From: Adenophora triphylla var. japonica
Lineage: Eukaryota; Streptophyta; Magnoliopsida; Asterales; Campanulaceae
Direction of reading: 5' to 3'
DNA: 64,000 bases
Assembly (NCBI GenBank): GCA_022495995.1
Contig: JAFEMH010002333.1
Coordinates: 182,501 to 246,500 of the forward strand
A program made the position numbers and the translations under genes. The notes beneath the pieces are model-generated. The model was not told where the DNA came from and did no database searches. It saw nothing but the letters and a program-made list of their open reading frames with translations. The stretch's first letter is position 1. Each line of letters begins with the position of its first letter. Positions 9,991 through 57,435 of this stretch are shown in pieces.

Positions 9991-9997
9991 TAAAAAA

Positions 9998-37707: not shown

Positions 37708-37778
37708 GAGAATTGTTATATAAACCCGTAAAATTGTTGAGTAAACCCGTAAAATTGCACTCATATTCATCACTGTAG
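37708..37778. mobile_element. Outer left arm of MULE-2
   Basis: Begins at the break in mTERF homology and contains TAAACCCGTAAAATTG twice. A third diverged copy (TAAATCCGTAAATTTG) lies at 42808-42824, on the other side of MULE-1, so 37708-37787 and 42704-43068 are one arm split by MULE-1. The exact left terminus and target duplication are not established. Confidence 0.5.
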
Positions 37779-37787
37779 GAATTGGGT
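37779..37787. repeat. 9-bp target-site duplication of MULE-1, left
   Basis: GAATTGGGT, identical to 42704-42712. Nine bases is the standard duplication length for Mutator-like elements. Confidence 0.88.
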
Positions 37788-38020
37788 GGCAAATTCTAAA
37801 TACAGGGAGTTTTAAATACAGGGATCCCGGGAAATTACTAATTTGCCCCTTTATATACCTAATTTCCCCTCCCTCCTTTCATTCAAACGCACACTCTCTC
37901 TCTCAGACTCTCCCTCTTCTCTCTGCGAACGAACGAGAGAAAAGGCGATTTCAATCCCAGGCGTCCCCAACCCACTCTCTCTCCTCGGACTCGCAACAAC
38001 GGAAAAAGGAAAAATCGATA

Positions 38021-39290
38021 ATGGTGAGAGTAAAAATCCCGGCGTCCCAACCCCGCCGCACCGAGCCGACGCTACCGCCCAAAGTCGTCGCCGCCGAGCG
38101 CCCTCTTCGACCGTGCCCGTAAAGAAGGTAAACTTAAACCTAATTTAATGGGACATCTCGAGTGAAACCACTCGAGATGCATCTCAGTGGGTTTATACGA
38201 GATGTCTCGTATAAACTCCACTGAGATGCATCTCGAGCGGTTTCACTCGAGATGTCATCCCACCGTTGTTGTTGATTTGTGTTAGATTGTTTAAAATTGA
38301 ATCCAAGTTTTGGCATAAACTGGGTAGCAAATGAACCGGGTTTTAATGGGACATCTCGAGTGAAACCACTCGAGATGCATCTCAGTGGGTTTATACGAGA
38401 TGTCTCGTATAAACCCACTCGAGATGCATCTCGAGTGGTTTCACTCGAATGTCATCCCACCGTTGTTGTTGATTTGTGTTAGATTGTTTAAAATTGAATC
38501 CAAGTTTTGGCATAAGCGGGTAGCAATGAACCGGGTTTTAATGGGACATCTCGAGTGAAACCACTCGAGATGCATCTCAGTGGGTTTATACGAGATGTCT
38601 CGTATAAACCCACTCGAGATGCATCTCGAGCGGTTTCACACGAGATGTCTCTAATGTATTGTCTCTCTCTTATTTGTGTTTTTGTAGGCACGTGAACCTA
38701 TGACCGTTTCGGCTAGAAAGAGGAAGGGCGATAAGCGTTTGGAGAGAGAAGAAAACGGAGGAAGGCCCTAAGACGAGGGAGCCACAAAACTCGATGATGA
38801 GCGGGGAGGAGGAGGCGGCGGTCGATAGGGATAGTGGGGAGGAGGAGGAGGATAGTTCTGATGGGGAGGAGGAGGAGGATAGTTCGATGGGGAGGAGGAG
38901 AGTGATAGTTACGGTGGTGGAGGTGGAGGTGGAGGTGGAGGTGGAGATGATGATGATGATGATGATGGTGGAGGTGGAGGTGAGGAGGAGGTGGAGGAGG
39001 GAGCGAGGGAGGAGGAGGAGGATATAGTAGAGCCTACTGTAGACCACCGAGACACGGGAGGAGGCGGGGTCGGGTTGTGGGCTGTCGGGCGGGGACGGGG
39101 GAGGAGAGCGGGGGTGTGGAGGGCGACCATCATGGCGGCTGAGAGGGACCCTGGTGGTGGCCCGAGAGGATGTTTCCTTGCTATACGGGTTCGGTGATCA
39201 CCGAGCGGACGACAGATTTGGAGTGACTCCATTAGTGAGTCATTAGTGACTTTCAGCAAGGCGACGCATCCGGGATAGGTAAGCTACTAA
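38021..39290 (+). pseudogene. PMD-like gene remnant in MULE-1
   Basis: Exon 1 (38021-38127) encodes a basic Pro/Arg-rich start (NPGVPTPPHRADATAQSRRR) ending at a clean AAG/GTAAAC donor. A 560-bp intron full of palindromes follows. Exon 2 starts at 38688 after TTTTTGTAG and reads AREPMTVSARKRKGDKRLER, then an acidic SGEEE..EEEEDSS tract and Gly/Asp repeats. Near 39150, allowing one frame change, DPGGGP..EDVSLLYGFGDH appears. A basic start, acidic stretch and PGGP..LL..H.A entry motif is also how the clear PMD protein at 53169-55055 begins. The PMD core is missing and frameshifts are present (about 38030, 38765, 39150). The assignment rests on this parallel, not on a full domain. Confidence 0.42.
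38147..38655. repeat. Three ~196-bp tandem units, each with a ~105-bp palindrome, in an intron
   Basis: AATGGGACATCTCG starts at 38147, 38345 and 38540. Each unit contains a long near-perfect foldback: GACATCTCGAGTGAAACC, GAGATGCATCTCAGTGGG and TTTATACGAGATG, followed by their complements. Spacers (GTTGTTGTTGATTTGTG and following) are also repeated. A transcript across this intron would fold into three strong hairpins. Confidence 0.93.
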
Positions 39291-39330
39291 TTAATGTGAT
39301 ATGTTTAAAATCTTGAAGTCATTTAAAAAA

Positions 39331-39505
39331 CCTATACGTGTACCACTTTCAGATGCTCGGGACATATTCCTTAAAACCCTAAAAAATGGGACATTTTTGT
39401 AACTCCACTTCCTTTAATATTTTGACCAATGTCATAAGCATGAAAAAGTCTTAAAATGTCATCTAGATCTTAGAAAAAATTTAAAAAAATATAAAAAACC
39501 AGGGT
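39331..39505 (+). repeat. Single diverged SatB monomer inside MULE-1
   Basis: The order of CGGGACATATTCCTTAAAAC, CCTAAAAAATGGGACA, TTTGTAACTCCACTTCC, AATGTCATAAGCATGAAAAA and AAATGTCATCTAGATCTTAG parallels the SatB monomer of 7461-9095 from end to end, at roughly three quarters identity by eye. There is only one copy here. Confidence 0.75.
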
Positions 39506-39737
39506 TTATGGAAAATATGACATCTCGTGTATATTAACACGAGATGATACTTGAACATCTCGTGTATAACTACACGAGATGATAGTTGAACATCTCGTGT
39601 AGACCTGCACGAGACGCGTCTAAATTTCCATAAATCGTTGCGTTGAAAGGAATTTGACGTTTAAAATTCCGAACATAAATCCAGAAAACACACCAACGCC
39701 ATTCTCATTCAAAAATTCAATTTTTTAAGTTCATAAC

Positions 39738-41981
39738 ATGGATTCCTCAAATAATAATAACATGGATTCCTCACATAATTCTCCCCAAAGTTCTCCAAGT
39801 TTCAATGATTATGCCTCACAAACTTCTCCACAAAATTCTTATGATTGTGTTGACCTTGATACGATAGATTTTCTCATTGATGAAGAAGAAGAAATCTTAC
39901 AAAATATTCCTCCACATCAACATTCTCCAAGTGTCAATGATCCTAGCTTCGATGAAGTAAGTTGTTAATTTTTTTTTTTGTGTATTGTGATCAAAATAAA
40001 AATAAAAATCCCATCTTGTTTTAAAAATCCCATCTTGTTTTTTTTTAAACTGTACAGGGGACATCTCGGGTAAATACACTCGAGATGCATCTCGAGTGAG
40101 TTTACTCGAGATGTGTCTCGTGTAATATTACTCGAGATGTGTCTCGAGTGGATATACCCGAGATACATGCCGGATCCTGAAACCGACCGATACTACTGTA
40201 TTTGTATTTTGCGGTGGTTCCTACCCGGACATCAGTGATGAATTCACTACATCACAAACATTTCAAACTCGGGCTGAGCTTCTTGCCCATGTACAAGCCA
40301 TCGCGAGGCGCCGTAATATATACCTTGTTATAAAGGACTCGAAGAATAGACGTGGAAATGTTCTTGCGTACGCAAACATAATTTGTCATTTTGGTGGACA
40401 ACACAGGGCCGGAAGATCAATGAACAAAAGGAAGACAAGTACGAAGAAAAGGGATTGCACTTTTAGACTATATGCCAAAGAAAGGGGTGGTGATGGGTTA
40501 TGGGGTTATGTTGTGAAGAATGGGGTGTTACATCAGGCGGACACATGGACTTCCCTGTTCCCATGAGATTTCACATATAGAGGAGCGTGGGGGACGGATT
40601 GAGCTTTCCATGATTGATGAGTTCTGGAAGAAGTTGGACATTGAAGTGGACACCCGTTCATCTGAGGATCCCTCTATAGATATCGACAGTTTTCGAGATG
40701 TGTTGGCTAGAGTTGAGACAGCACCTGAACCGGTAAGGAGAAGGTTATTATGGCATATGGAAGAAGGGCTTAATCACCACGCGATGGTTGCTTCCGAGCG
40801 CATCATACTTCAAAGGCGAATCAACCCCGACCCAGGAAGTTCAAGAGAACCGTCGGGTGGGAGCATACAAACAACTTTTATGGAGTCCCCGCTACACCGC
40901 CCTCGACTAGAAAAGGGTATGTATTTTCATGCAAATTATGCCTCAAATCTTTGGGTGTTTGTTGTACATTTGACACCGCTTCTCACACTTCTTTTTATTT
41001 TTCCTGTTTCAGGTCTAGATGTGCATTCATGGCATCAACCCGAGGGAGTTTGGATTCCACGCGCAAACGGAAATCACCTACCAAACCCACACCATCAACC
41101 CCTGCTAGTACTCCCTACGTCTCTCATCCACCGCTAGCTCCTTCCGGTCGTGGGAGAGGACGGGGTCGAGGTCGAGGTCGAGGTCGAGGACGGGGTCGAG
41201 GACGGGATCATGGTCAGGGACGTGGAGAGGGAAATGGACATCCCAATCACACTAGTATATACGACTCCGCGTACTTGGCGTATTTTCCGCCTTTCATTAT
41301 CCCTTATATTGGAGGCATCACCAACGTCAAAGGAGATGGTCATTGTGGCTATAGAGCCGTAGCATTACAAATATACGGAGATGAGGAGTCGTGGGGCCGA
41401 GTTCGCTCGTAATGTTACACAGAGGTGCGTGATCACCAAGAGCTTTATGAGAGAGTTCTATCTTGGATACCGGTATCGGAGCTGTTACGTAAGCTTGCTT
41501 GTTATGAACCGTGGGCGCCCGACTATTATTGGATGACGCTCCCAGAGGTTGGGCACATCATTGCCACGAGGTATAACGTGGCGTTTATTTCGTACGGATC
41601 TAGCGGTGGCAACTTATGCCTTCCGGTGACCGTACGTGCGGGAGTACAACCACCGACGGACACAGTTGTGCTGGGACAAGTCCCCACCCATTTTATAGCG
41701 GTATGATACTTTACTTTATCATCTATATTATATTAGTTATATTTTGTTGTCCTACTTATAGTCGTTATATTTGATGGCCTTGTATTTAACTGTTAATGCT
41801 TTTGCAGCTTCACATGTTAGGCAATGATTACCCCATTCCACCAACACCGCTCCCTTGGAGGTCCCAATGTGATCCAAGCGCAAGGCAACTGCACCTCCCA
41901 TACCAAGATAGGACATCAGAGTACAGTCGACTATATGAGGAGGACAGCGATGCAAGAAGACAAAGATTACATTTGGGATAG
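39738..41981 (+). pseudogene. MULE DNA-binding/SWIM domain fused to OTU cysteine protease
   Basis: Exon 1 (39738-39956, MDSSNNNNMDSSHNS..) is Ser/Asn-rich and acidic. Exon 2 (~40215-40916) encodes a FAR1/MULE-type DNA-binding region (RAELLAHVQAIARRRNIYLV, then CHFGGQHRAGRSMNKRK). Near 40515 it jumps with a frame change into the SWIM finger (GCYIRRTHGLPCSHEISHIE), so the whole DDE core between them is deleted. After an intron (40917-41012) come an Arg-Gly repeat tract (41150-41235) and an OTU protease: KGDGHCGYRAVALQIYGDEE with catalytic Asp (41335) and Cys (41344), and VPTHFIAV with catalytic His (41689). The last exon starts at 41808. Damage: a TAA at 41410-41412 inside the OTU domain and a lost AG at the exon 2 acceptor. 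OTU enzymes cleave ubiquitin or ubiquitin-like linkages; the substrate here is unknown. Confidence 0.85.
40027..40281 (+). repeat. Intron-exon segment duplicated within MULE-1 (upstream copy)
   Basis: About 255 bases from CCATCTTGTTTTTTTT through a palindrome cluster and the splice acceptor to CGGGCTGAGCTT recur at 42209-42462. In this copy the acceptor reads TTGCGGTGG. The downstream copy keeps TTGCAGGG. Confidence 0.9.
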
Positions 41982-42208
41982 TATATGTGTTATGGTTTTT
42001 TATTTATCCACTTTGTATGAATGTTTGAATTAATTGCTTTCGTTTCGTAAACACTTTCATTTCGTAAACAATTTGGCGATACTATACGTGTAATGGTATA
42101 TTCATCCCTCCCATGGTTTTGTGGAGATGTCCTATCACATTCACAATCAAATTTTATTCCAAGTTCGGTCTCTTGTTAGCTTTTCTGTTCTTTGAAGTGA
42201 AACATTAT

Positions 42209-42462
42209 CCCATCTTGTTTTTTTTAAAGCGTACAGGGACATCTCGGGTAAATACCCTCGAGATGCATCTCGAGTGAGTTTACTCGAGATGTGTCTCGTG
42301 GTAATATTACTCGAGATGTGTCTCGAGTGGATATACCCGAGATACATGCTGGATCCCTGGAAACCGACCGATACTACCTGTATTTGTATTTTGCAGGGTT
42401 CCTACCCGGACATCAGTGATGAATTAACTACATCACAACCATTTCAAACTCGGGCTGAGCTT
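42209..42462 (+). repeat. Intron-exon segment duplicated within MULE-1 (downstream copy)
   Basis: Partner of 40027-40281, placed in the right arm and retaining the intact acceptor followed by GSYPDISDELTTSQPFQTRA before an unrelated stop. It brings the CATCTCGAG palindrome cluster into the right subterminal region. Confidence 0.9.
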
Positions 42463-42494
42463 TTCCTGTTGCTGAAGTGAAACATTAGCCTCTG

Positions 42495-42645
42495 ATGCAT
42501 ATCTCGTGCCGATCTCGAGATGTCCTCTTGTATCTCGGGTAGACTTACACGACATAAATCTCGTGTAAATGTGCAGAGATATGTCGTGTAAGTCTACCCG
42601 AGATGTAAGAGGACATCTCGGGTAGACTTACACGAGACGGGCAGG
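42495..42645. repeat. Right subterminal palindromes of MULE-1
   Basis: TACACGACATAAATCTCGTG, GAGATATGTCGTGTAAG and ACATCTCGGGTAGACTTACA with complements, ending about 15 bases before the right inverted repeat. Confidence 0.8.
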
Positions 42646-42703
42646 GGCAGCGATGGAATAAATTAGATCCCTGTATTTAAGATCCCTGTATATAAATATA
42701 TCC

Positions 42704-42712
42704 GAATTGGGT
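42704..42712. repeat. 9-bp target-site duplication of MULE-1, right
   Basis: GAATTGGGT, identical to 37779-37787. Confidence 0.88.
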
Positions 42713-43063
42713 TCAAGCTTTCCCGTAAGTTGGAATCTTCAAAAATGTCATCAAGTGAAATGACAAAATTATCCCTAAATTTATTACCTAATTCACTAAT
42801 GTTAAATAAATCCGTAAATTTGTTGAGTAAACTCGTATACCATTTTCACCACCTTCCCCTTCCTCCCTCATCAATTTTCACCACCTTTCCTCTCACTCCC
42901 TCATCAATTTTCACTTTTTTACTTAATCACTTCTTTTTATTTTTTTACTCCAAAAAAAATTACCTTTCTTTCCTTCCTCTTCCTCTCACCATCATTTATT
43001 TCCCAAAAAAAAAAATTCATACACATTTGTTCCAAGACAAGAGATTCAGCAGGCTTTTCATGG
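42713..43063 (+). mobile_element. Inner left arm and leader of MULE-2
   Basis: Continues the arm from 37778 after MULE-1. It contains TCCGTAAATTTGTTGAGTAA (third copy of the arm repeat), CT-rich leader DNA (ACTCCCTCATCAATTTTCAC repeated), and the ATG of the MULE-2 reading frame at 43060. Confidence 0.6.
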
Positions 43064-43068
43064 ATGCT
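43064..43068. repeat. 5-bp target-site duplication of the Athila-type element, left
   Basis: ATGCT, identical to 50243-50247. Confidence 0.9.
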
Positions 43069-44656
43069 TGATAGATGTGTATTTACCCATCCAAATGATG
43101 CACTTTTAGGCTTTCTTTGTGTTTGATTCCCGAGTTTTATGTAGATTTGATGTGGTTTGTGAGTATTTTATGAGTACAGGGTATAGAGCTGATTAAAGAT
43201 GTATTTTATGGCTAAAAAGTGCAAAAAAAAATAAAGTGGAGCGGAGCAGAGAAGGAAAATAGTGAAATAAATGAGCTCCAAGGACCAAATGGGAAATATT
43301 GGGAAATTCAAGGACTAAACAGGAAATATGGAATTTTTGGACGAATTTGATTTATAAAAATTTATGGGATTAAATGAAAAATAAAATCTCAAAGAGCGAA
43401 GTGCAAAAGAATTCATTACAGTGGTCAAAGTGGACTTGACAATTGTGGAGACGAAACGAATAATAAAATTGGGTCAAGAGTGGCCGGCCACTTTGTGGTA
43501 CACGGCCAGAAGGAAGGAGCAATGTGGCCGGCCAGGAGGGGAGCTCTGCTAGGGCCATTGCCATTTGGGGCGGAGGTTGAAATGAAATGGGCCTGGGATG
43601 ATCTGTCAACAAGGGCGGTCGCTGTCCAGCTAAGGGCGGCCGCTGTTACTGAAGCAAATGGCCGAGTATCTTTCTGCCAACTTGGGCGTCCGCGCTAGCA
43701 TTCAAGGGCGGCCGCGCTACGTCGATTTCAACAACAGTGTGGCGATTTAAACAAGGGCATTATCGTATTTTCTCAGCTTGGTCCACAGATTTACCCTATT
43801 TTCTCTTTATAAATTGACACAGCCACGGTAGTTTGATATAGAACATATATCATATATCATATTATTAGAGTTAGATTTTTATGCTTTTCTTGGAACAATT
43901 GAAGAAGAAGAATTATTCATCAATTTCAGGTTTTAATATTTGTAAATTATGAGTAGCTAAATTTCTTAGATTTGTAGATTGTTTTGATCTTCGCCGAATT
44001 TCTATGCAATAATAGTATTTTAATTCTTTCAATTTAATTCCTTCTAGTTCATTAATAGATTTTAATTCCATGTTCTTGGATTCGAGACGTATGTTAAGAT
44101 ACGAACTCATCTTTGAATAATTGGGTATTTATTGAGCCATTAATTTGGGCGATTTATACATAGACTGCTATTAATTGAATAACTTGATCTGTGCCGTAAT
44201 AGAATCGGATCAACGTTAGGTTTTGATATTCTTTCGTGTTTAACGTATTCTTGGCATATTGTGAAACCGTAATAGAATAGAATTCACAAAATTAAGAGAG
44301 TATTTAGGATTGTAATCCGGCCACCTAACCGTGTCGATCCTAGCTAAAGTGAATGAACCCTAGAAGTTGAGTTGATGTTTTATAAGTAAAATTTTGCATA
44401 GAATGATGGTGAAGTGAAATCCAATCTACGAATCTCTGCTCATAATCTGTTTTCTCGTTTAGTTAGTTTTTTGTTATTTATTTTATGCTCTTAGTTCTAA
44501 ATCAAGTTATAAATTGTGGTTACAAAATTCACTGCTTTCACTTTACTTGTTTACCAACGAGTCTCTGTGGATTCGACCCCTGCATTTGCATACTGCTACA
44601 CCGGTAGTGAGTACACTTGCTCGGTTTTTATTACAAGAGGGAGTTTTCCTCCATCA
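43069..44656 (+). repeat. 5' LTR of the Athila-type element
   Basis: TGATAGATG..CTCCATCA, with GC-rich blocks (GGCCGGCCAC, AAGGGCGGCCGC) in U3 and a TTTATAAATTGACAC TATA-like region at about 43804. It contains ~130 bases (about 44450-44590) missing from the 3' LTR. Confidence 0.93.
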
Positions 44657-44662
44657 AGTTTT

Positions 44663-44680
44663 TGGCGTCGTTGCCGGGGA
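44663..44680 (+). other. Primer-binding site of the Athila-type element
   Basis: TGGCGTCGTTGCCGGGGA starts six bases after the LTR and matches, with one change, the TGGCGCCGTTGCCGGGGA site typical of Athila elements (usually assigned to Asp-tRNA). Confidence 0.88.
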
Positions 44681-44714
44681 CTTGTTGCAAGTAAACAAGT
44701 AGGTTAGGTAGTGA

Positions 44715-47192
44715 ATGCAAGGTCGTCGTTCTTTGAAGCCTACATTGGTGCCATTGGACGATAACATAAATAGATTTAAGGAAGCATTTGAGGGCGATCC
44801 CCTCTTTAATCCCCTGTTCTCAGATTCTGACACCGAATCAGAACCCTCCACCACCGAGGTAGAGGAAGAGAAAGCCGAGATGGCAGTACCACCGGCGCAG
44901 ACTATGAATGATTTCCTGAGACCTAGGGTAGACACATCTACCTCTTGCATAGTGTTGTCCGATGCAGCCAAAAATTTAGAGGTCAAAGGACAATACTTTG
45001 CCATGTTGCCAAGCTTTCACGGATTGCCTGGTGAGGATGCACTTACGTTCCTTAAAGAATATATTATTGTTGTTGCTCAATTTTTGTTAAGACAGGGAGT
45101 GACTGAGGAGCAAATTAGACTGAAGTGTTTTCCTTACACTCTTAAGGGAGTGGCTAAAACATGGTTGATGATGCTTGCACCGAGCAGCATTAGTACTTGG
45201 GGAGAATTACAAGATGTGTTCCTTAAAAGATATTACCCACATCATCTTTTGGCTGGTTTTAGACAGAAATTGATGACATTTTCCCAAGATGTGGGGGAGC
45301 CCTTTCATGAGGCATGGGAAAGATTTAATACAATGTTAATGCAATGTCCCCAACACAATTTCACACTACCCTCACTGAACCAAGCCTTTTATGATGGCTT
45401 GAATGACAATGGTCAATCAATGGTTGACAATGCTGCTGGAGGCTCGATAGGAGCCAAGACCCCGGAAGAAACTAAAGCTTTATTTGAGATGTTGAGTGCT
45501 AACTCTCAACAAAAGAGTTCGAGGGGTAAAACAAGGGGGGTACTTGAATTGAATGATAGTGATAATATTTCAAAGCAGATTGCACTTTTAAATAATAAAT
45601 TGGATAAATTGACTGCTTGTGGCACTTCTGCTGGTGCCAATGTTATTACTGATTATTGTACAAATTGTGGTTTATCATCTCATGTGACTAATATGTGTCC
45701 AAGTGCAGCAAATTTTTCCTATTGTCCTGAACAGGCACATGCTTTCAACGGATATGGACAAAGACCACCACCCCAAGGCAACCCATACGGTAACTACAAT
45801 TCATGGGGTGGCTATCATAATCAGCAAGTAAAACCCCTTCATGTGCCACCACATGGACAACATGGTAGGGAGCCTTGGGAGCTGGCAGTCCAGCAGTTAA
45901 GGATGGAGATGCAGCAAAGTAATAGAAATACAGATGCTGCGTTTGAAAAGATGGGCACACAAGTAGAGCAATTTGTGAAGGTTGCCCAAGAGTTGATGAA
46001 AGAGAAGAACCCACCTGAGCAAGCAAAGTCAATCACAACAGTGTGGGATGAAAGTGAGGAAATTGAGGAGGTATTTCTATCTTCCCTTGATAATTTTGAA
46101 TGTGATAATATTGATAATGTTAGTGAGGAAGAGGATGAGATTGGGGAGGTTCAATATGTATTTTCTGCATTAAATTTAGAAACCCCTCCCCCCAATGTTG
46201 TGAAAATCACACCCCAGAGAGGTGTGGAGTTTGAAAAGATTAAACATGTTCAAAAAGACCCCGGGTGTTTCACTATCCCAATTTCTTTAGGGGGTCAAAA
46301 TTTTAAAGGTTTGTTGGATCTTGGGGCAAGTGTTAATGTGATGCCCTTTCATGTTTTTAGAAGTTTGGGGGTATGTGAGTTGAAACCACCCATGAGAGAC
46401 TTGCAATTGGCGGATCTCTCAATTAAAAGACCTTTAGGGGTTCTTGAAGGAGTGTTGGTTAAAATTGATAAAATCATTATCCCCATTGACTTTTATGTGA
46501 TGTGTATGGAGGGATCAAGTGAGGAACAACTGAAAACTCCCATTCTGCTTGGGAGACCATTTATGTTTGACACTAAGGCCACCATTGATGTGTGTCAAGG
46601 GGTGGTGTCCTTGAGAGGTATGGAGGAGGAATGTAAGTTTTGTATGCTTAAAAATGATAAGAAACCCTTCCCCAAAGATGGTTTTGTAGGAGCCATAACA
46701 GATTTTCCAATTTTTAAAGATGATGTGAATGGATGTGAAAAAAGTGGGGATAATGCGGACGTTTGTCCCGTGGCTAGTAACATTAAGGCCGACCAATACT
46801 CTAGGAGTAACGGGTCGTATCACTCCCCACACGACTCCCATAAAGAGTCGATTCCATCACATTTACCACAAGGGCCTTCAAAATCGAGAGTTAGTGAGGA
46901 GAGTTATAGTGATTTATCTGATTCTATATTTGCTACGATTTTTGTGCACGATAACTCTCTTGATCTTGGTTGTGAGAATGGTGTTTTGCAGGTTGAAGAA
47001 AAGATTGAGTTCGGGGGTGAAAACCCCAATAAAAGAAAAAGAAAAAGGGGTAAGCACAAGCGTAAAGTTTTAAAAATAAATTTGGCTTTACCCCTACTTG
47101 TTGACAATGGAGAGCTGATTTGGAAAGAGAAGGGCGTTTGTGCCCGTGAGAAAAGGAGATGGTCCAAAGGCCGCAAAGCAAAGGCCAAGTAA
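44715..47192 (+). CDS. gag: Athila-type Gag with aspartic protease domain
   Basis: An 825-codon intact frame. An acidic N-terminus is followed by the gag capsid-like domain (~100-230): CFPYTLKGVAKTWLMMLAPS, DVFLKRYYPHHL and FHEAWERFNTMLMQCPQHN are all typical of Athila/Tat Gag. A knuckle CTNCGLSSHVTNMCPS lies at ~315, with His/Cys spacing degenerate from CCHC. A retropepsin-like segment at ~520-640 (FTIPISLGGQNFKGLLDLGA then SVNVMPFHVFRSLGV) has the DLGAS variant of the usual D-[ST]-G triad. A Lys/Arg-rich end (KRKRKRGKHKRK) could be nuclear-directing or RNA-binding. There is no RT after the stop. The product would package element RNA in trans with proteins from a complete relative. Confidence 0.9.
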   Translation: MQGRRSLKPTLVPLDDNINRFKEAFEGDPLFNPLFSDSDTESEPSTTEVEEEKAEMAVPPAQTMNDFLRPRVDTSTSCIVLSDAAKNLEVKGQYFAMLPSFHGLPGEDALTFLKEYIIVVAQFLLRQGVTEEQIRLKCFPYTLKGVAKTWLMMLAPSSISTWGELQDVFLKRYYPHHLLAGFRQKLMTFSQDVGEPFHEAWERFNTMLMQCPQHNFTLPSLNQAFYDGLNDNGQSMVDNAAGGSIGAKTPEETKALFEMLSANSQQKSSRGKTRGVLELNDSDNISKQIALLNNKLDKLTACGTSAGANVITDYCTNCGLSSHVTNMCPSAANFSYCPEQAHAFNGYGQRPPPQGNPYGNYNSWGGYHNQQVKPLHVPPHGQHGREPWELAVQQLRMEMQQSNRNTDAAFEKMGTQVEQFVKVAQELMKEKNPPEQAKSITTVWDESEEIEEVFLSSLDNFECDNIDNVSEEEDEIGEVQYVFSALNLETPPPNVVKITPQRGVEFEKIKHVQKDPGCFTIPISLGGQNFKGLLDLGASVNVMPFHVFRSLGVCELKPPMRDLQLADLSIKRPLGVLEGVLVKIDKIIIPIDFYVMCMEGSSEEQLKTPILLGRPFMFDTKATIDVCQGVVSLRGMEEECKFCMLKNDKKPFPKDGFVGAITDFPIFKDDVNGCEKSGDNADVCPVASNIKADQYSRSNGSYHSPHDSHKESIPSHLPQGPSKSRVSEESYSDLSDSIFATIFVHDNSLDLGCENGVLQVEEKIEFGGENPNKRKRKRGKHKRKVLKINLALPLLVDNGELIWKEKGVCAREKRRWSKGRKAKAK

Positions 47193-48801
47193 GCTTGGGA
47201 CCATAGTCGGGCTAACGACTTTAACCAAATGCGCTGCTTGGGAGGCAACCCAATGAGGTATGTTTTATTTTTATGTTAATTACTGTTTAGTAGTGTCTTG
47301 CTATCTGTCGAACCCAAGGCACGCTTTTGTTCTCTTTTCTATGAGGACATAGCATGTTTTAAGTTTGGGGGTGGGCAACTCTTCGAGTTTGTGGGTTTAT
47401 AGGGGAGTGTATATAGTGTCACCCTAAAAAAAAAATAGAAAAATTTTAAAAAATTTGTTCTTTTCATAGTTGGGATGTTGGCCAAAGTCTGTGATGATTA
47501 GAGTGTACTTTAATTTTAAAATCACATGTGCTATTATTAGTGTGGTGATTGGGATTGCATTGAAACATTTAAATTATGATTGCACCACCTCTCACTTCCG
47601 TATCATATTCTTGGTCATTGTCATCAACTTAGGTGCCTTTTATGGGATCACTTTGTGTATTCTCGGGGTCCCTAGAACATGTTTGCATGATTGTCAATAA
47701 CACGTCAATAGGTTACTTGATATATATGGCTATTTTTGAATCCCTTTTTGTGAGCCTTAAACTTTCTCGTCACTAAATAAAATTTTTTCGCTAGAACCCC
47801 TTTTGAGCTTGAAAAAGAATGGAATCTCTCATAAAGTGGGAGGTTATCTTAGACCACCATTCGCCTTCATTTGTACCCTCATTGTCCCACCCTTTTTAAC
47901 TTATACACTATTTTCTCACCCTTTCAAGAAAGTGAAACTAGGGAAAGAATGGGAATATTTTGGGGGATGTGTTGAAAATCAACGGGTTGTGTGGAAAGTG
48001 GTCACGAAAATAAAGAAGTGGGTCATGTTATGTAATAAAAAGAGGGGCTTGAGCAAAATAGTAAATGCACATTCTTTGTGATACATATGTGCAAAGTAAA
48101 AAAAAAAAAAAGCCTTGCCCTCTCTAATGTCAATGTGGAAATTATGTTTCAAGGTGACCAAAGAAAGTAATGGAATGTGCTCAACCCCATGTCGATGTAT
48201 GAAAAAGTTTTAGTTTGTGGGTTGGCACATTGGGAAGTAATAAGGGTGAGTGGAGGAATTATAATCAAAGTGAGGATGTATTGTTAAAAGAAGACTTTCT
48301 AGTTTCACTTTCTTATGTTCGTATGTCCTTACCTTCATTTGTAACCATGAACCTAGCCCTGCGATCTTTCGCACTTAACTTTGAGCCATATTATTCTTTC
48401 AATATCGAGTAACCGGGTTGACAATCGTGTAAATATGCATATGAGTGTCCTTTTTTGGGTTGTACTATCTATAACATATTGATTTAGAGCATCACTTAGT
48501 GAATCCATAAACAATCTTAGGTTGTTGACAGTGACCTCCCATAATTCATTCATCATTCAGGCATGCGGTGGAAAATTGTGAGTTTTATGCTTCAATGTGA
48601 TTGTAATCCCATTACTGTGGTGGCACTTGTTGATTATGTGTGTTGGTGAGAATCTGAGACTTGTATGGCCAATGACTCATCTGTGATAGAACAACCTCAA
48701 AAATAATTATTGTGTTTTAATGTTTTATTTAGAGTAGCTTTATTTTACTTCTTTTAGTTTTGTTTTACTCGGGACGAGCAAAAGGTTAGTTTGTGGGTGT
48801 T
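47193..48801 (+). other. Untranslated internal region and polypurine-like tract
   Basis: After the gag stop comes GTCGGGCTAACGACTTTAAC then GCTTGGGAGGCAACCC, a phrase typical of the region downstream of gag in Athila-like elements. About 1.5 kb follows without a convincing gene. GTTAGTTTGTGGGTGTT just before 48802 serves the polypurine role. Confidence 0.7.
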
Positions 48802-50242
48802 TGATGGATGTGTATTTACCCATCCAAATGATGCACTTTTAGGCTTTCTTTGTGTTTGATTCCCGAGTTTTATGTAGATTTGATGTGGTTTGTGAGTATT
48901 TTATGAGTACAGGGTATAGAGCTGATTAAAGATGTATTTTATGGCTAAAAAGTGCAAAAAGAATAAAGTGAAGCGGAGCAGAGAAGGAAAATAGTGAAAT
49001 AAATGAGCTCCAAGGACCAAATGGGAAATATTTGGAAATTCAAGGACTAAACAGGAAATATGGAATTTTTGGACGAATTTGATTTATAAAAATTCATGGG
49101 ATTAAATGAAAAATAAAATCTCAAAGAGCGAAGTGCAAAAGAATTCATTACAGTGGTCAAAGTGGACTTGTCAATTGTGGAGACGAAACGAATAATAAAA
49201 TTGGGCCAAGAGTGGCCGGCCACTTTGTGGTACACGGCCAGAAGGAAGGAGCAATGTGGCCGGCCAGGAGGGGAGCACTGCTAGGGCCATTGCCATTTGG
49301 GGCCGAGGTTGAAATGAAATGGGCCTGGGATGATCTGTCAATAAGGGCGGTCGCTGTCTAGCTAAGGGCGGCCGCTGTTACTGAAGCAAATGGCCGAGTA
49401 ACTTTCTGCCAACTTGGGCGTCCGCGCTAGCATTCAAGGGCGGCCGCGCTACGTCGATTTCAACAACACTGTGGCGATTTAAACAAGGGCATTATCGTAT
49501 TTTCTCAGCTTGGTCCACAGATTTACCCTATTTTTTATAAATTGACACAGCCACGGTAGTTTGATATAGAACATATATCATATATCATATTATTAGAGTT
49601 AGATTTTTATGCTTTTCTTGAAACAATTGAAGAAGAAGAATTATTCATCAATCCAGGTTTTATTTTTTGTAAATTATGAGTAGCTAAATTCCTTAGATTT
49701 GTAGATTGTTTTGATCTTCACCGGATTTCTATGCATTAATATTTTAATTCTTTCAATTTAATTCCTTCTAGTTCATTAATAGATTTTAATTCCATGTTCT
49801 TGGATTCGAAACGTATGTTAAGATACGAACTCATCTTTGAATAATTGGGTATTTATTGAGCCATTAATTTGGGCGATTTATACATAGACTGCTATTAATT
49901 AAATAACTTGATCTGTGCCGTAATAGAATCGGATCAACGTTAGGTTTTGATATTCTTTCGTGTTTAACGTATTCATGGCATATTGTGGAACCGTAATAGA
50001 ATTCACAATATTAAGAGAGTATTTAGGATTGTAATCCGGCCACCTAACCGTGTCGATCCTAGCTAAAGTGAATGAACCCTAGAAGTTTAGTTGATGTTTT
50101 ATAAGTAAAATTTTGCATAGAATGATGGTGAAGTGAAATCCATTCTACGAATCTCTGCTCATAATCTGCATTTGCATACTGCTACACCGGTAGTGAGTAC
50201 ACTTGCTCGGTTTTTATTACAAGAGGGAGTTTTCCTCCATCA
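48802..50242 (+). repeat. 3' LTR of the Athila-type element
   Basis: TGATGGATG..CTCCATCA, collinear with the 5' LTR, with one ~130-bp deletion near 50168 and a few small indels. Confidence 0.93.
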
Positions 50243-50247
50243 ATGCT
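50243..50247. repeat. 5-bp target-site duplication of the Athila-type element, right
   Basis: ATGCT, identical to 43064-43068. Confidence 0.9.
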
Positions 50248-50319
50248 CTACCATCGAATGTTAATGTAAGTTTTCTAACCATTTAAATTTGTTAAAAATG
50301 TCATTTCTGTTTCGTAGCT

Positions 50320-50545
50320 CAAATTCGGCCAGTAGTGACCGAAAATCTGTTCAGGTTCGGCCACGCCCGGCCGAAATTCAGCTATGGTTCGGCCACACCC
50401 GGCCGAAAATTTAAAATTTTTCGGCTCTGGTTTGCCGAATCTGGGCTGTTTTTCGGTCAGTAACGGCCGAATTTTTGAAATATTTCGGCCACACCCAGCC
50501 GAACCATCGAAGAAAATTCGGCCACCACTGGCCGAACCTTTGTTT
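50320..50545. repeat. GGCCGAA palindrome cluster in intron 1 of the MULE-2 gene
   Basis: About ten TTCGGCC or GGCCGAA half-sites, often paired around CASYACTGG or CACRCCC centres (for example TTCGGCCACGCCCGGCCGAA). The intron is otherwise unremarkable. Confidence 0.9.
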
Positions 50546-52504
50546 TTCTGCTTACACCTCCCTTATTGTTTTATTGAATTGTTGCAGTATTCCCTGGGTG
50601 ACAACAACTATGTCTCGGTTGATTTTGAAAGCGTTTTGCGAGACTACACCCCAGAATTCACAATGCCCTTGTTTTTTCGAGACCGAAAAATAATGTTTGA
50701 ATGGGTGCGTAAAAAGGGGGAAGAGCATGGGTTTGTCATCGTAGTCGGTCGGATAACGGGAGCCGTAATTTCGCTCCTCGAATGACGCTTGTTTGTGATC
50801 GGTGGGGGAAATACAAGGAAAAACCAATCTCTCTGTCCTCTCAAGGAACTGCCAACCTTGAAATATTGGGATTGGGGAAAAAAGAAAATAGAGAGAGCGG
50901 AACAAAGAAATGCGGTTGTAAGTTTCAGTTGAACGCCAGACAAGTCACGGTTGATGGTGAATGGCAATTAAAAGTGGTTTGTGGCTTTCACAATCATCCG
51001 ATTTGCGAATCCATGTTGGGTCACTCTTATGCCGGTAGATTACTGAAATCAGAGGAGGAGTACGTGATAGAATTGTCACATGCAAATAGCCGGCCGAAGG
51101 ATATTTTACATGGATTAAAAGAGAAATTTTCGGAAAACAAGTCCATAATACGAACTATTTATAATGCGCGAGTGAAGAACAGGATAAATGAGCATGCGGT
51201 CGTTCTCAAATCTAACAGCTCATGTTTAAATTGACCGATCATGCTTATCACTTCGAATATCGTCAATGCGAGAATACAAATGTCATTAAGGAGATATTCT
51301 TTGCTCATCCGAAAAGCATTGAATTGATGAAGGCATTTTCATACGTCTTGAAGAAGAGATTCGAAATCGGTACAATGAGATTCGCAATACTCTTGATTTA
51401 AGATTTGAGGCAGCTCCACGAACCGGAAAGATTTTGATTGTTCGGAGATTGACCGAGATTTTTCATCCTGCAACAACAATGGCTAATGAACCTGCAGTTA
51501 AAACAAATAAAAAGGGTCGTCCTAAAGCAAAGAATGCTAAGTTCCTCAAATCCACGAAGCGGGATCCTAGCGCATTTGAGTACGTGGAGGCCATACCCGA
51601 CCAAGTGTAATTCAACACCGATGCAAATCAAGGGTCTCCGATGTTATCTGCAAAAGCCAAGTTACAGGTAACCTCAAAACTGTTTATATTATTCAGTTAA
51701 ACTTTTATATCATGAAATAATTTTATTTATGTTTAATTTTTTCTTTTTTTGAATTTATCTTATAGCCCGTTCGTCGAAAAAGTCAACATGCAATCAAATA
51801 TCTTAATCAACTACTGGTTTTCATGCATGGTTATATTGAGAAAATAGTTGATGTGCGGGGTGATGGGAATTGTGGCTTCCGGTGTATTGCGGAGTTACTT
51901 GGCCGTGATTCAAATGAGTGGCGATGGGTTCGGGAAGTGTTATATCAGGAGGTTTTTGGAAATCAAGAGTTGTATACTGAGTTATTCATGGGCGAGGATA
52001 TGGTGGATAAAGTCCTTTCTGCTATTCACTGGTTTGATGGACCATGCGGAGAAGCAAATTGGTTTGATGCTACAGAAATGGGTTACGCTGTTGCAAATGC
52101 ATTCAACGTTGCGTTGGTGACTTTGAGTAACACCTTGTCTTTGACCTTCCTTCCTCTACGAAAATCAAAGCCACATAACCCAAAATTGATTTGCATATGC
52201 TATGTCAACGACAATCATTACATTCATGCCAAGTTGAAGGAAGGATGTCCATTGCCACCAGTATTATACAAATGGTATGATTGCCGAGCTGAATGTGCAA
52301 CCGGATGGCTAGATTCTTATCAAGATCGATTAATACAAGTACCCGAAACATCAATTTATGTAATTGATATTAAATAATTTTATTTATGTTAAATATTATG
52401 ATTTGTGGTGTTACATATCTTTAAATAATTTTCATTTATTATTACATTCCATTTTTTATTAACTAAATTTAACTAACTTTAATAAACAGAAAAAAAAATG
52501 GAAT

Positions 52505-52815
52505 TTTTTATTTTTTTGGAATGGTTCAGCCGGTAGTGGCTGAATTTTGTCAAATATTTCGGCCAGTACCTGTCGAAAAACTAAAGAAAATTCGGTCAGT
52601 ACTGGCCGAACCTTTGTAACTATGGCAAAAAAATTTTAAAAAATTTCAGCCAATGCTTAGAACACGTAACAATGTTTTTTCGTGAACGTTTCCAAAAAAA
52701 AACACACTTATTCTAGGTCTCGGTCAGTACTGGTCGAACAGTAATGAGGTTTTCGGTCAGTACTGGCCGAACTTCTTGACTGGTTCAGTCAGTACTGGCC
52801 GAATTTTTTCCAGTT
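52505..52815. repeat. GGCCGAA palindrome cluster between OTU and PMD genes
   Basis: TTCGGCCAGTACCTGTCGAA, TTCGGTCAGTACTGGCCGAA (twice) and related forms. It lies between the 3' ends of the two convergent genes. Confidence 0.9.
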
Positions 52816-53168
52816 TTTCGACATGTACTTGCTGTATTCTGCACTAACCAGGGCACGTCCCCGACTCGTCTATGCTGCAACCATCAACCATACACACATA
52901 TATATACAAACCATAAACCATATATATACAAATTATGCACCAGCCAATCACCCCCCATACACATAAAACCATTAACCCATATACGCACTCACCTCATACT
53001 TACACCAACCAATTACTCCATATATATACAAACCATAAATCCATAAATCAATTATTTCAAACATGAAATATAAAACCAAAAATAATTGTTCATATAATCA
53101 TTACCACATTTTCAAACATCAAATACAAAACCAAAAATAATTGTTCAAAAAAAACCAAAACTACAAAT
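52816..53168. other. Intergenic DNA 3' of the PMD gene
   Basis: ACCATAAACCATATATATAC-type short repeats and a duplicated TTTTCAAACATCAAATACAAAAC phrase. No gene seen. Confidence 0.5.
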
Positions 53169-55055
53169 CTATTGTCGTCTTCTACCACCCTGAGAAGTTG
53201 ATGTCCGTGCTGGGGTTTGAGTTTCTGCCAATGCTCTGAAGATGACGTCCATAGCCTCCTCTAAACTAAATGAGCGACCTCCATCTGTCCATCTCTCAGC
53301 AATAGGCATCATGACGTTCCGGACATTCATAATCATATCCCACGGATTAGGGGCAACAACTTCAGTTGTCCTCCTGACAGCGTGAGACCGCTCAGTAATG
53401 GGGTGCACAATAGGGTGTGAATATGCAGAGTACCATTGCAGATAATCATTTGCAGCATGTTGAGGCACTCTACATCCCGATAACTTGCGTTTATCGACGC
53501 AATTCGACTTCCAGTCATAGAATGACTGGGCAAACATGATCCACCCCATTAGAGACTTCTTATCTCGTCTCGCCATCCCAAGACCAAGTGGAGGGTTTGG
53601 TATTGTCTGCATGTACCCAAACTGTCGCAAGACCCGGTCAGGAAGATGTGGTTCCACCACATTACCGGCAACTATGGCACCTTGATATAGCGCGACTCTA
53701 GGAAAAGGAAATTGAGCGCGGATACCTTCATACGGCATCCAAATCACCTACAATAAAAACATAAAAAATATTAATATAGTTTCATTTAAGAAAACAAAAA
53801 TACATGTGAAAATTATTACTAAAAAAATAATACTTACTTTCGTGTCCTGAATAATGTCAATATGTTGCCTCTTTACTTGCACGGAGGCAACTGTCGCTGG
53901 TTGAGCCCGAGGTGGTAGCCACTTCAATGTGAGCGACAAATTGGGTAGATAGAAGTTGTTGAAACCGTTCCTAAACGCAGGAAACCTCTCATAAACCCAA
54001 GCCTCCAACAAGGTTAAGTGCCCGAAAATCTGATGGCAGTTAAACCTAGACCCTTTTCCTAGTTGCCGGTACAGAAAAGCTAACGCTCCGGCTCCCCAAG
54101 CATAATTCCCTATTGCCCCATCATCTCTCAAAAAATCTAGATAGCTAGCGTTGACACATGTCCCGGTCTTATCAGAAAAGATTGTGCACCCCAATAAATA
54201 TAAAAGATATGCCTTAGCAAAGACGCATGCCTTTTCGGGGGTCTGAGGAGTACAACTGAGGGGAGAACTTCGATCTAAGCCATTCTAAATTGACCAATGC
54301 CCCCTTGGCAGGAATTCCATCTTTAGCAACTTTTTGGTCACTCCCAAAACCTCACAAACCTTATTAAGAGGTGGCTGACTAGCATAAGTGAGACTCTCAA
54401 ATAAGGGTGCACCTACTACCGGAAGCAGTGTAAGACAGGACACATCCTCTAAAGTGATGGTCATCTCCCCAAATGGCATATGGAAACTATTAGTTTCCGG
54501 ATGCCATCGCTCAACAAAAGCGTTAACCAACATTTTATCTACGTTGTCATACGCTCCACTTCTATTAACTAAGCACAAGAGACCGGAATTAATGATAAGC
54601 ATTTGAACCGGCTCTGACACTTTATTCAACTCCAATTCCCATTTTTTCAATTTTTCTATATGGTTAATACATTTTAAAATTCTATCATCTTTACCCTCCC
54701 AAATTGATTTAGCAATATGAGTTTCATAGGAAAGAAGTAATGTTTTGTACCTCGGGCCACCGGGATAAGACGTTACATCCCCACCTCCCTCCTCATCATC
54801 CTCATCTTCCTCATCTTTCGGCTCATCTTCCGGCTCATATTCCCGTTCATCTTCCGGGTCACTATCATTTTGAGCCGGAATAAGGTCTATCCTAGGCTCA
54901 GGTGAGGTTTTCATAGGCTCATTGTAGACCGACAAGTGAGGATCAACATTTAAATCCTCAACTGGCTCTTGGTTCTGTGAAAATTGCCCTTGAGTACGTG
55001 CGGCTACTTTTTCACTCCTTTCGAAAGCAGTTGGACGTCTTCTCCTTGTAAACAT
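53169..55055 (-). pseudogene. Plant mobile domain (PMD) protein of MULE-2
   Basis: Exon 1 (55055-53838) starts MFTRRRRPTAFERSEK, then an acidic stretch, then the PMD: SYPGGPRYKTLLLSYETHIA, VSEPVQMLIINSGLLCLVN, FVERWHPETNSFHMPFGEMT and ITLEDVSCLTLLPVVGAPLF, later YLDFLRDDGAIGNYAWGAGA. GTAAGTA at 53837 and TTGTAG at 53748 bound an intron. Exon 2 (53747-53169) starts VIWMPYEGIRAQFPFPRVAL and ends TSTSQGGRRRQ. PMD proteins (MAIL/MAIN family) act in chromatin silencing in Arabidopsis, and PMD genes also occur inside transposons. Around 54240-54296 the reading frame shifts to EWLRSKFSPQLYSSDPR and back, so two compensating indels interrupt an otherwise full-length protein. It could be a sequencing artefact; otherwise it is recently broken. 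Confidence 0.85.
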
Positions 55056-55139
55056 TTGCTTAACTGCAAAGAAAACATCAAAAAATCAAACTCATAAATT
55101 TTTTATATAATATCATATCAAAATCAAACACTAAGATCT

Positions 55140-55300
55140 CATTGAGCAAGGTTCGTCCAGTTGTGGCCGAAATTTTGGGAATGGTTTGGTTGGTCATGGC
55201 CGAAAATTTGAGCAGGTTCGGCCGAGGGTGACCGAAATTTTGATATTTTTCGGCAGGGTGTGGCCGACTAGATGTAATAAATCGGCCAGTAGTGGCCGAA
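55140..55300. repeat. GGCCGAA palindrome cluster upstream of the PMD gene
   Basis: TTGTGGCCGAAATTTTGG, TTCGGCCGAGGGTGACCGAA, TCGGCCAGTAGTGGCCGAAC and degenerate forms, located about 90-250 bases upstream of the PMD start codon, so they could act on its promoter. Confidence 0.88.
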
Positions 55301-55429
55301 CCACTCAAAAACCCAGAATTCGAATTTCTTCAAAATGAAAATCTCTCAAATCTCAAATTGAAGGAAAAATAAACTAATTTTAGCACAAAGAAAAGAAAAA
55401 TTACCAGATTTTCCAAGGTTTGACATCTT

Positions 55430-55725
55430 GAAATTGAAAATGGTGGTTGTTCTTCTTCTTCTTCTTTGGTTTTTGCTTCTTCTTTCTTCGCTCTCTCTCT
55501 CTCTCTCAGCCGTGTCTCTCTTCTCTCTCTCTGCGGTCTCTTGTGTTCTCTTCTCTCTCTATTTCACCGTTGTTTCCTCTCTTTCTCTCTCTAGGTTTGA
55601 TTTGAGTGGGGATGAGTGAGAGAGAGTAAATGAGAAGTTAATTGGGTGGATGGGTGTGGGTGTGGGTGTGGGTGTGGGTGTGGGATAAAGACAAGGGGTA
55701 TAAAGGGAAAAAAGGGGGGGGGTTA
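55430..55725. repeat. CT-rich leader DNA, (GGGTGT)n tract and poly-G run
   Basis: CTCTCTCTCTCT from 55490, about six GGGTGT units at 55648-55685, and a run of nine G at about 55715-55724. On the minus strand these are the GA/CA/C-rich leader or promoter of the PMD gene. The G-runs could form a quadruplex. Confidence 0.75.
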
Positions 55726-57435
55726 TTTAATTTATTTGGGGTGAATTTAATCCCATTTTGCACCCTTCATCGGAAAGTGTTTCAATTTCATCCTTTATGT
55801 CCATTTTTTTATCATATTTTTTTGTACCAAAAATGTGATAGGAATAGTAGAAAAATGTGACAGGAATAGTAGAAAAATTGCTTAAGTTGACCAACAACAA
55901 GCGCCTAAATCATTTGTTAAATGGGTGTTTTTAATTTAACATGAGGTCTCGAGTTAGAGTGTTGGAAATCCAACAGAGTTAAAACTGTGTTGGAAGAGCT
56001 TATGCTGCGATCGATGTTTCGAGATCATATTTGAAATCAAGAACTAGGTGCGTGAACCTTGCTATAAAATCAATTAAATACCATAAACATGTATAGCACA
56101 CGAGATACATTGGTTCGACTAAACAACAACAATACCAGCAGTCACCACATGCTAACTGCCACAACTGATAAACATGACAAACTAGTGATAAACATGACAA
56201 ACTAGAGTTACACACAACTCTAAACAAAGTCTGAAAACACTTGTCGACACCAAAAGAATAACAACTACTACATCACGAAAATTATACTAAGCTACCCAAA
56301 TACAAAGTTTAAATAACTCATTACAACCAACGTCCTCACCAACATAAATATATAAAAGCTTTGTAAAGCAACTACCTAAAGGAGTAACAAAATACTCAGA
56401 GATCCCTGCTAAGTCGTACATCACTGTGCGAAACCACATGATCTCATGTAATCTATGAAAAACAAATAAATAAGGAAACGGGATGAGTCAAAACTCAGCA
56501 AGTTACTACATGACAAGTCATGATATCATGCATACAATAATATAACAACAATAATAGTAAACACATACTAAATAAGTAATACTATAATCAATAAATACAT
56601 ATCATATAACATGCAAAAGTACGCAGTATTTGCAAGCTGTAATTCAAATCATGTCACATAATGTATCCTGCAGAGTTGTCATAATTTAACTCATTTTCGA
56701 GTCCATAATATTAGACTCCAAATAATTAAATAACACATGTGATGATGTATCCACTCACAACTATTTTGCATGTATATAATTGCAAACGGACTTATATCGC
56801 ATTATAAGTCACAAACTATGTCCGCAAATATTTTGCGTCATTTCTATTAATTTTAATCACAAACACATTAAATCGCAATTATAATTTTATAACTCCTAAT
56901 ATATTTCAACTACTCGTTTTATGGATCAGTGTAATTTTGTTACACCCTAAACGACTATGTTGAGTCTTTTATTAATTTTGGGTCACAACTACTAGTTATA
57001 CTATTGTCACTGTACCACATTAAATTATTATTTCCATCATTTGAGTCCATTAAACTAGTTAACATGTATATCAAATTACATATAAACAAGAATAATAATA
57101 GTATCATTACTACCGACATCGATTTTGTAGTAAAATCATCTAATACAACATGTATATTTTTATTTTTTTAATACAACATGTATGAATAATACTATAATTA
57201 AAGGGGGAATAGTAACTTACCTATTGACGAAATTTACCAATTAAACTTTGAAATATTGCAGTCAAAATGATCCCTTAAGTACTGATACGGAGTCGGATCA
57301 TAAAACGGAAGTCCAATTGTTATAGTCTAATATTCATAAGTTCCCTCGAAACCCTTCTATGCTTCTTCTATTATTCCCCCGCTTTACTAATTTTACTATT
57401 TAGTCAAGGAACAAAGACTTTGTGGTTTGCCAAAG
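55726..57435. other. Intergenic DNA, no gene seen
   Basis: AT-rich with no credible ORF on either strand. A 24-base phrase is tandemly repeated near 56160-56205 (ACTGATAAACATGACAAACTAG / TGATAAACATGACAAACTAG), as is TGTGACAGGAATAGTAGAAAAA near 55840-55878. Confidence 0.5.

Follow-up and report, generated by a model that had tools for sequence, protein, structure and literature searches.

In the genome of Adenophora triphylla var. japonica, a stretch of 64,000 nucleotides (positions 182,501 to 246,500 of contig JAFEMH010002333.1; hereafter the window) carries two Mutator-like elements (MULEs), MULE-1 and MULE-2, which are dead, internally deleted copies, one nested in the other. Both belong to families that combine a transposase ending in an OTU cysteine protease domain with a second gene encoding a plant mobile domain (PMD) protein. 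Judged from the sequences compared, this OTU and PMD pairing recurs in two deeply separate MULE families of this genome with a gene order fixed within each family, and it is not universal among OTU-bearing MULEs. A sequence-only reading of the window had proposed the pairing as a recurring accessory toolkit; with corrections, we confirm that the paired finding is real and now better founded than in that first reading. The best explanation, at a probability of about 0.55, is that these are two-gene MULEs in which the PMD protein would act as a VANC-like anti-silencer of the element's own short-word arrays and the OTU domain as a remover of ubiquitin.

Results

Gene content of the two elements

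The OTU-bearing transposase gene and the PMD gene of MULE-2 are convergent (P numbers denote homologous proteins, C and L numbers loci of the Adenophora genome):

50591..51350, + strand: FAR1 domain and start of the MULE domain (PF03101, E 2.4e-6, 28.6 bits against a cut-off of 28.1; alignment to P0004)
51348..51350, + strand: internal deletion junction with a 3-bp overlap, TTG; about 1,035 bp (MULE domain and SWIM region) lost in comparison with C106, C86 and C6179
51351..51667, + strand: post-SWIM C-terminal segment of the transposase (P0004 563-651)
51766..52374, + strand: OTU exon, open, catalytic motif kept (Foldseek match to OTUD3, E 4.4e-5)
53172..55055, - strand: PMD gene with one intron and a frame disruption at about 54225-54290 (PF10536 in three pieces)

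The three PF10536 pieces scored 45, 73.1 and 69.2 bits against a cut-off of 34.9 (E 1.1e-11 to 3.1e-20), and the Pfam OTU model matched the OTU exon at E 0.2 only. Its predicted structure has the OTU fold with the catalytic D, C and H and matches OTUD3, DUBA and others in Foldseek, so that the content of FAR1, OTU and PMD first assigned to MULE-2 holds. The MULE-2 PMD has 306 homologues at E<=0.001, the best 120 of which were considered. Pfam found no ULP1 domain, as carried by the KIU VANDAL elements, in the MULE-2 PMD open reading frames (ORFs), and the PMD and OTU-MULE profiles proved unrelated.

With the MULE-2 remnant as query, 37 proteins were found, among them long OTU-tailed transposases from Phlomoides, Citrus, Melia, Malus, Rubus and others; the long ones (842-984 amino acids) carry the MULE domain. 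The catalytic-Cys motif pattern is present in 17 of the 37; P0001, P0006 and P0008, which align over the C-terminal region, lack it. The two ends of the long proteins are matched by MULE-2 residues 1-276 and about 286-563, the middle being gone. The MULE domain (PF10551) is present in full-length relatives, by precomputed Pfam assignments and by tblastn of P0004 and P0039 to L029 and L032-L034, and missing through deletion from both window copies. Because both copies carry internal deletions relative to full-length relatives, the transposase order is read as FAR1-MULE-SWIM-OTU (SWIM by eye, from a GLPC.HEI motif, without a Pfam SWIM call) and the short FAR1-OTU fusion as a product of decay. 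The fusion described earlier is thus present in both copies, in MULE-1 by alignment only, as the remnant of a longer transposase. By these alignments the OTU domain is the C-terminus of the transposase polypeptide, and its earlier description as an accessory beside a DNA-binding protein is given up. Three cucurbit 2-succinylbenzoate-CoA ligase models (P0028, P0029, P0031) have a C-terminal stretch matching the MULE FAR1 region, through either a MULE insertion or an annotation fusion.

The genes of MULE-1 follow one another on the same strand:

38022..39324, + strand: 5' part of the PMD gene, acidic N-terminus and GGP..DVSLLYGFGDHRA start motif (relatives L029/L030; start by eye)
39739..40527, + strand: N-terminal and FAR1-like part of the transposase (L029 alignment; P0004 residues 29-134, 29%, E 8e-7)
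40524..41000, + strand: SWIM-end remnant (THGLPCSHEI, by eye) and C-terminal linker (P0039 match 40478-41008)
41270..41979, + strand: OTU domain with an intron at about 41704-41807 and one in-frame stop (P0038 50%, MULE-2 OTU 31%; motifs GDGHCGYR and HFIA)

Neither FAR1 nor OTU exceeds the Pfam cut-off in MULE-1; both were recognised by alignment, the OTU domain at E 7e-43 to P0038 and 5e-16 to P0004. The transposase deletion junction lies at about 40523-40527 in a short overlap, GGGTG, with about 1.2 kb lost relative to L029. From the MULE-1 sequence alone the PMD is not significant (best profile hidden Markov model E 0.53; tblastn 0.016 and 0.056), the rest of the gene being deleted at about 39324. 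Bases 1-1538 of MULE-1 are about 89% identical to L029 and bases 1-1497 91% to L030, where the same DNA enters a same-strand PMD; the interval at 38.0-39.3 kb of the window (88-89% and 91-92%) continues in both relatives into the PMD, whose start motif appears in the L030 frame as ERDPGGGPEDVSLLYGFGDHRAGQIWSDSI. Since these alignments run into a same-strand PMD, both the fragmentary PMD and the tandem order that the sequence-only reading gave to MULE-1, as against the convergent order of MULE-2, are upheld.

Recurrence of the pairing

The genome searched was the species' own assembly of 2.48 Gb in 8432 contigs. In a search with P0004, 52 of 6241 candidates were scored, giving 22 loci with an OTU part, of which 20, chosen by OTU similarity, were each fetched as one stretch running downstream from the OTU region (9.9 kb each, one of 7.7 kb at a contig end). 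The PMD profile matches 13 of these 20, always convergent with the OTU gene: all 12 loci of MULE-2 type (L017-L028; identity to MULE-2 of about 54% or higher along most of the alignment) and one of eight in a third clade of OTU-MULEs, which shares about 30% identity with MULE-2, namely L009, with a fragment about 4 kb away. No PMD was seen in the DNA covered of the other seven third-clade loci, upstream DNA being covered in two of the eight; C1906 and C5071 of this clade have none at E<=1 in 5 kb upstream.

For MULE-1, 150 of 3024 OTU candidates were scored, in three identity bands set by judgement, and the upstream side of six loci was inspected. A same-strand PMD lies upstream in four (L029, L030, L032 and L034), the upstream PMD region is lost in L031, and in L033 the retrieved DNA stops within an array, ahead of the expected PMD place. 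The toolkit idea therefore stands for the MULE-2 type (12/12) and the MULE-1 type (4/6) and fails as a general rule with the third clade (no PMD seen in 7/8). These are few loci against copy numbers of at least 150 scored OTU places per family (from 2034 and 3024 candidates), and many genomic OTU-MULE copies carry stops. In Camellia and in Tripterygium, an OTU-MULE and a PMD protein are assigned to contigs of the same size within each species (2,212,257 and 11,021,876 bases, respectively), a crude hint that we did not use.

Phylogeny and constraint

Across the 13 loci with both genes (74 of 78 pairs), OTU and PMD distances correlate with r 0.911, a value reached in none of 5000 permutations, and within subfamily 1 of the MULE-2 type with r 0.824 (35 pairs, 0 of 2000 permutations). 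In the OTU tree, the MULE-1 type groups with P0038 (0.986) and, separately, the MULE-2 type with P0002 (0.961); the PMD-poor clade stands apart (1.00). The PMD tree comprised nine MULE-2-type and four MULE-1-type sequences, the latter short joined fragments of 188-345 amino acids, with 42 of the 120 best homologues. MULE-1-type PMDs fall together (0.981) within a clade of P0082, P0108, P0124, P0133, P0141 and P0142 (1.00; nearest-neighbour support 0.47), and MULE-2-type PMDs group with P0043 (0.995) and P0040 (0.928). The congruence of OTU and PMD that a module would predict is thus seen within the MULE-2 type. Because the two PMDs sit in different parts of the tree, 'module' is to be taken as a repeated association and not clearly as one inherited cassette; the separate positions, together with the different gene order, favour separate pairings or a very old divergence.

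The catalytic D, C and H are retained in all 20 OTU loci, which had been picked by OTU similarity. For OTU, the ratio of nonsynonymous to synonymous divergence (dN/dS) between subfamilies is 0.35-0.41 over 10 pairs, 7 of 11 sequences having sufficient length; for PMD it is 0.19-0.32 (4 pairs).

Family-specific word arrays

Both elements carry clusters of short words, for which the largely palindromic units differ as first described, ATCTCGAGT in MULE-1 and TTCGGCC in MULE-2:

38155..38621, unstranded: MULE-1 array of the palindromic word ATCTCGAGT, cluster 1 (further clusters at 40078-40138 and 42267-42317)
50324..50536, unstranded: MULE-2 TTCGGCC array, cluster 1, in intron 1 (by eye; word counts)
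52549..52832, unstranded: MULE-2 word array, cluster 2, between the convergent genes (word counts)
55165..55300, unstranded: MULE-2 word array, cluster 3, 5' of the PMD (word counts)

All 17 ATCTCGAGT words of the window lie within MULE-1, shuffled versions of which give 0.00; of 19 TTCGGCC/GGCCGAA words, 18 lie in MULE-2, 17 of them in the three non-coding clusters. TTCGGCC clusters occur between the genes in all eight subfamily 1 loci (with 0-1 GTCGGCC) and also 5' of the PMD in all of these except L017, while the four subfamily 2 loci have 4-11 GTCGGCC, in the same places where the DNA is intact, with 1-2 TTCGGCC; shuffled elements give 0.3-0.7 and about 0.2 (4 and 3 elements). As the counts of the two words swap at the same sites, the array word shifts between subfamilies and the places stay.

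In the MULE-1-type loci L032, L033 and L034, the transposase gene is preceded upstream by a tandem array of about 13-16 units, each about 170 bp long; in L032 and L034 this array stands between the gene and the PMD. The window itself holds, at 7453-9118, about ten copies of a tandem unit of about 168 bp, some 91-98% identical to the L032 array and probably a further MULE-1-type remnant. In the seven PMD-less third-clade loci none of the named 7- or 9-mer words occurs more than once; in L009, an array of GCGATTACAA and GCCTACCCCA words (3544-4458) lies between the OTU gene and the PMD fragment. Upstream of a PMD-less OTU-MULE, L036 has 62 copies of a word containing AGTGAACAC (451-1936), which sit in an apparently separate, small nested inverted-repeat element (by eye).

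Predicted fold of the PMD

The predicted structure of a PMD homologue has the fold of VANC21, a transposon-encoded, array-binding protein that removes silencing. The targets of VANC proteins are described as tandem repeats that carry motifs, lie in introns and in intergenic and terminal non-coding regions, and diverge from family to family (PMC5735166, PMC10398659). Because the predicted PMD fold is that of VANC, the idea of anti-silencing is strengthened. VIA-align listed no family beyond VANC21, an absence that we do not count as evidence. No PMD protein reached the Pfam cut-off for DUF1985 (35.1 bits); 16 of 30 matched at E<=1, the best with 22.6 bits (E 1.1e-4).

Insertion layout and surroundings

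The order of insertions follows from these features:

37708..37751, + strand: left terminal inverted repeat (TIR) of MULE-2, 44 bp (44 of 44 positions equal to the TIR of its relative C86)
37779..37787, + strand: left target-site duplication of MULE-1, GAATTGGGT, 9 bp (exact copy at 42704-42712)
37788..42703, + strand: MULE-1, internally deleted, within the 5' end of MULE-2 (duplication; aligned to L029 and L030; imperfect TIR by eye)
43060..43068, + strand: start of the MULE-2 first exon (ATGGATGCT), which resumes at 50248 after a long terminal repeat (LTR) retroelement (ATGCT flanking both sides, by eye)
43069..50242, unstranded: LTR retroelement inside MULE-2, no part of the system, splitting the MULE-2 first exon (duplication ATGCT; boundaries by eye)
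55700..55750, unstranded: right border region of MULE-2 (alignment to relatives ends at about 55749)

TIRs with a duplication of 8-11 bp, commonly 9 bp, are the mark of the MULE superfamily and were found for C86, with a 44-bp TIR at 97.7% flanked by the 9-bp duplication ATAGGAAAA, and for MULE-1; C106 and C6179 have TIRs and yet no apparent target-site duplication at the boundaries used. Position 37708 fits as the MULE-2 insertion point because a host stretch duplicated elsewhere in the window aligns up to 37707. By comparison with relatives MULE-2 lacks its right TIR. Past its right end one would expect the host flank that continues the other host copy; no such sequence turned up in the window. 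Both elements are broken by frame disruptions.

The LTR retroelement has direct repeats (43061-44449 and 48794-50168) that are 96.8% identical and a gag-like ORF at 44715-47192 (label by eye). A divergent PMD gene fragment lies outside MULE-2 at 58341-59039 (- strand; 25% to the MULE-2 PMD). A large direct duplication (18-26 kb against 31-37.7 kb of the window, pieces 90-98% identical) includes a long ORF resembling what we take to be an mTERF-like gene, and a tandem repeat of about 165 bp occurs at 3028-5105 and 9097-9996 in mutually inverted orientations.

Discussion

We propose that there are two families of two-gene MULEs, in which gene 1 encodes a FAR1-MULE-SWIM-OTU polypeptide and gene 2 a PMD protein. 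By analogy with VANC, the PMD protein would bind the word arrays of its own family and strip silencing there. The OTU domain, carried by the transposase, may take off ubiquitin or some ubiquitin-like protein, with chromatin, silencing factors and the transposase itself as candidate substrates; in ULP1-bearing VANDALs, ULP1 may play a comparable part.

Several observations weigh against this proposal. The TM-score of PMD and VANC21, normalised by target, is only 0.55 at 10% identity; the protein modelled, a homologue from Castilleja, has 40% identity with the MULE-2 PMD, and the MULE-1-type PMDs lie outside the modelled set. The PMD sequence profile gave no relevant match in the PDB, hence no sequence-level link to VANC21, and a common fold, here a predicted one, is no proof of function. 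In the more distant MULE-1 relatives ATCTCGAGT is absent or single (1, 0 and 0 in L032, L033 and L034). The PMD-less loci L012, L014 and L016 carry, 4-6 kb beyond the OTU region, arrays built from other words, which may or may not belong to the elements; arrays may thus occur also without a PMD. PMD dS between subfamilies (1.55-1.78) is close to saturation, and OTU dN/dS within subfamilies ranges from 0.33 to 1.10. Finally, the host PMD proteins MAIN and MAIL1 promote silencing, the opposite sign (PMC8616336, PMC7156037).

A wider version can be offered tentatively. The PMD at large may be a DNA-reading fold of VANC type, with transposon PMDs as sequence-specific anti-silencers of their own arrays and MAIN/MAIL1 as domesticated forms of reversed sign; MULEs would then have paired such a reader with a ubiquitin-family protease at least three times (ULP1 joined to VANC, and OTU joined to a PMD once in tandem and once in convergent order) because removal of ubiquitin or SUMO is part of de-silencing.

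The rival that survives best, though we think it rather unlikely, concerns the OTU domain, which could trim ubiquitin from the transposase or its complex and so stabilise it, with no relation to PMD function. It would account for a protease in the same polypeptide as the transposase, also in the clade where a PMD was not seen in seven of eight loci; the repeated co-occurrence with a PMD it leaves unexplained, though it does not forbid it.

Less probable still is that the arrays are binding sites of the FAR1 transposase or element-control repeats and that the PMD protein is an accessory of transposition, like MURB of MuDR, with no silencing role. FAR1-type domains bind DNA, arrays also lie in the 5' region of the transposase gene, and three of the seven PMD-less loci have the other arrays mentioned above. 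Against this, the named words are absent or single in PMD-less loci, the sole third-clade locus with a PMD fragment carries, between OTU and this fragment, an array made of its own words, and the PMD has the predicted fold of an array-binding protein. PMDs beside MULE transposases, which would suit an accessory, are common in published MULEs (PMC6446971).

It is improbable that the element PMD is a decoy of host MAIN/MAIL1, for example titrating PP7L, by mimicry instead of DNA binding. MAIN and MAIL1 do act in transposon silencing (PMC8616336, PMC7156037), and counter-silencing by transposon-encoded PMDs has already been suggested (PMC8616336), but a decoy leaves the family-specific arrays and the VANC fold unexplained, and similarity should persist among decoys of a single host target, whereas the two families' PMDs are placed apart in the tree. 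That OTU and PMD are functionless captured passengers, as in Pack-MULEs, is already disfavoured and very improbable: the broken window copies, the many genomic copies with stops and within-subfamily OTU dN/dS of up to 1.1 would fit, but not the fixed layout in 12 of 12 loci, the catalytic residues kept in 20 of 20 OTU-chosen loci or the between-subfamily dN/dS below 1.

The PMD, called a domain of unknown function in a 2020 paper (PMC7156037), underlies the host silencing pathway MAIN/MAIL1/PP7L, yet is mostly found in plant transposons. The predicted fold match to DNA-bound VANC21 makes PMD function a testable claim, with candidate target words for each family. From the OTU pairing it would seem that removal of ubiquitin may repeatedly accompany anti-silencing by transposons, and the presence of this pairing in two distant families suggests a possible common kit for escaping plant genome defences. 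Part of the genes down-regulated in MAIN/MAIL1 mutants share a promoter motif (PMC7156037).

In the open literature searched we found nothing joining mutator-like elements, OTU and plant mobile domain, nothing on an OTU-like cysteine protease with a mutator-like or MULE plant transposase apart from one paper that deals with tomato microRNAs and, since 2023, nothing on a VANC21 crystal structure; the accessible portions of texts naming both VANC and plant mobile domain draw no link between them. Such a link may already be in print in subscription journals, for example in any paper behind 9lnj. The strongest novelty lies in PMD fold, arrays and OTU taken together; the mechanism is inferred.

Among known systems, the elements resemble the VANDAL/Hiun MULEs in having a second gene of VANC fold (predicted here) and arrays in non-coding DNA, and the KIU VANDALs, whose VANC gene comes with ULP1, in the presence of a ubiquitin-like protease; the function of ULP1 is stated to be unknown (PMC13317346). 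They differ from VANDALs in that the protease is an OTU on the transposase, whereas the KIU ULP1 is on the VANC-like protein, and in their FAR1-type transposase domain, clear TIRs, sub-threshold DUF1985 and different, largely palindromic words. With the MUDR, MDR, MUDRAVI2 and MULE-Monocots clades, as tabulated by Dupeyron et al. 2019 (PMC6446971), they share a PMD gene adjoining the transposase, often on the opposite strand; among the entries of that table examined, OTU ('Ovarian Tumour Gene') is given only for MuDR-6_HM of Cnidaria, and the FAR1-bearing Jittery clade is listed without a PMD. MAIN and MAIL1 have the PMD too, but are host genes that aid silencing outside any element. The FAR1-RELATED SEQUENCE-like transposases with an OTU tail (P0002, P0004, P0009 and others) likewise unite a MULE domain and an OTU-like C-terminus in one protein; they are known as proteins only, whereas the window elements are known also by their PMD neighbour.

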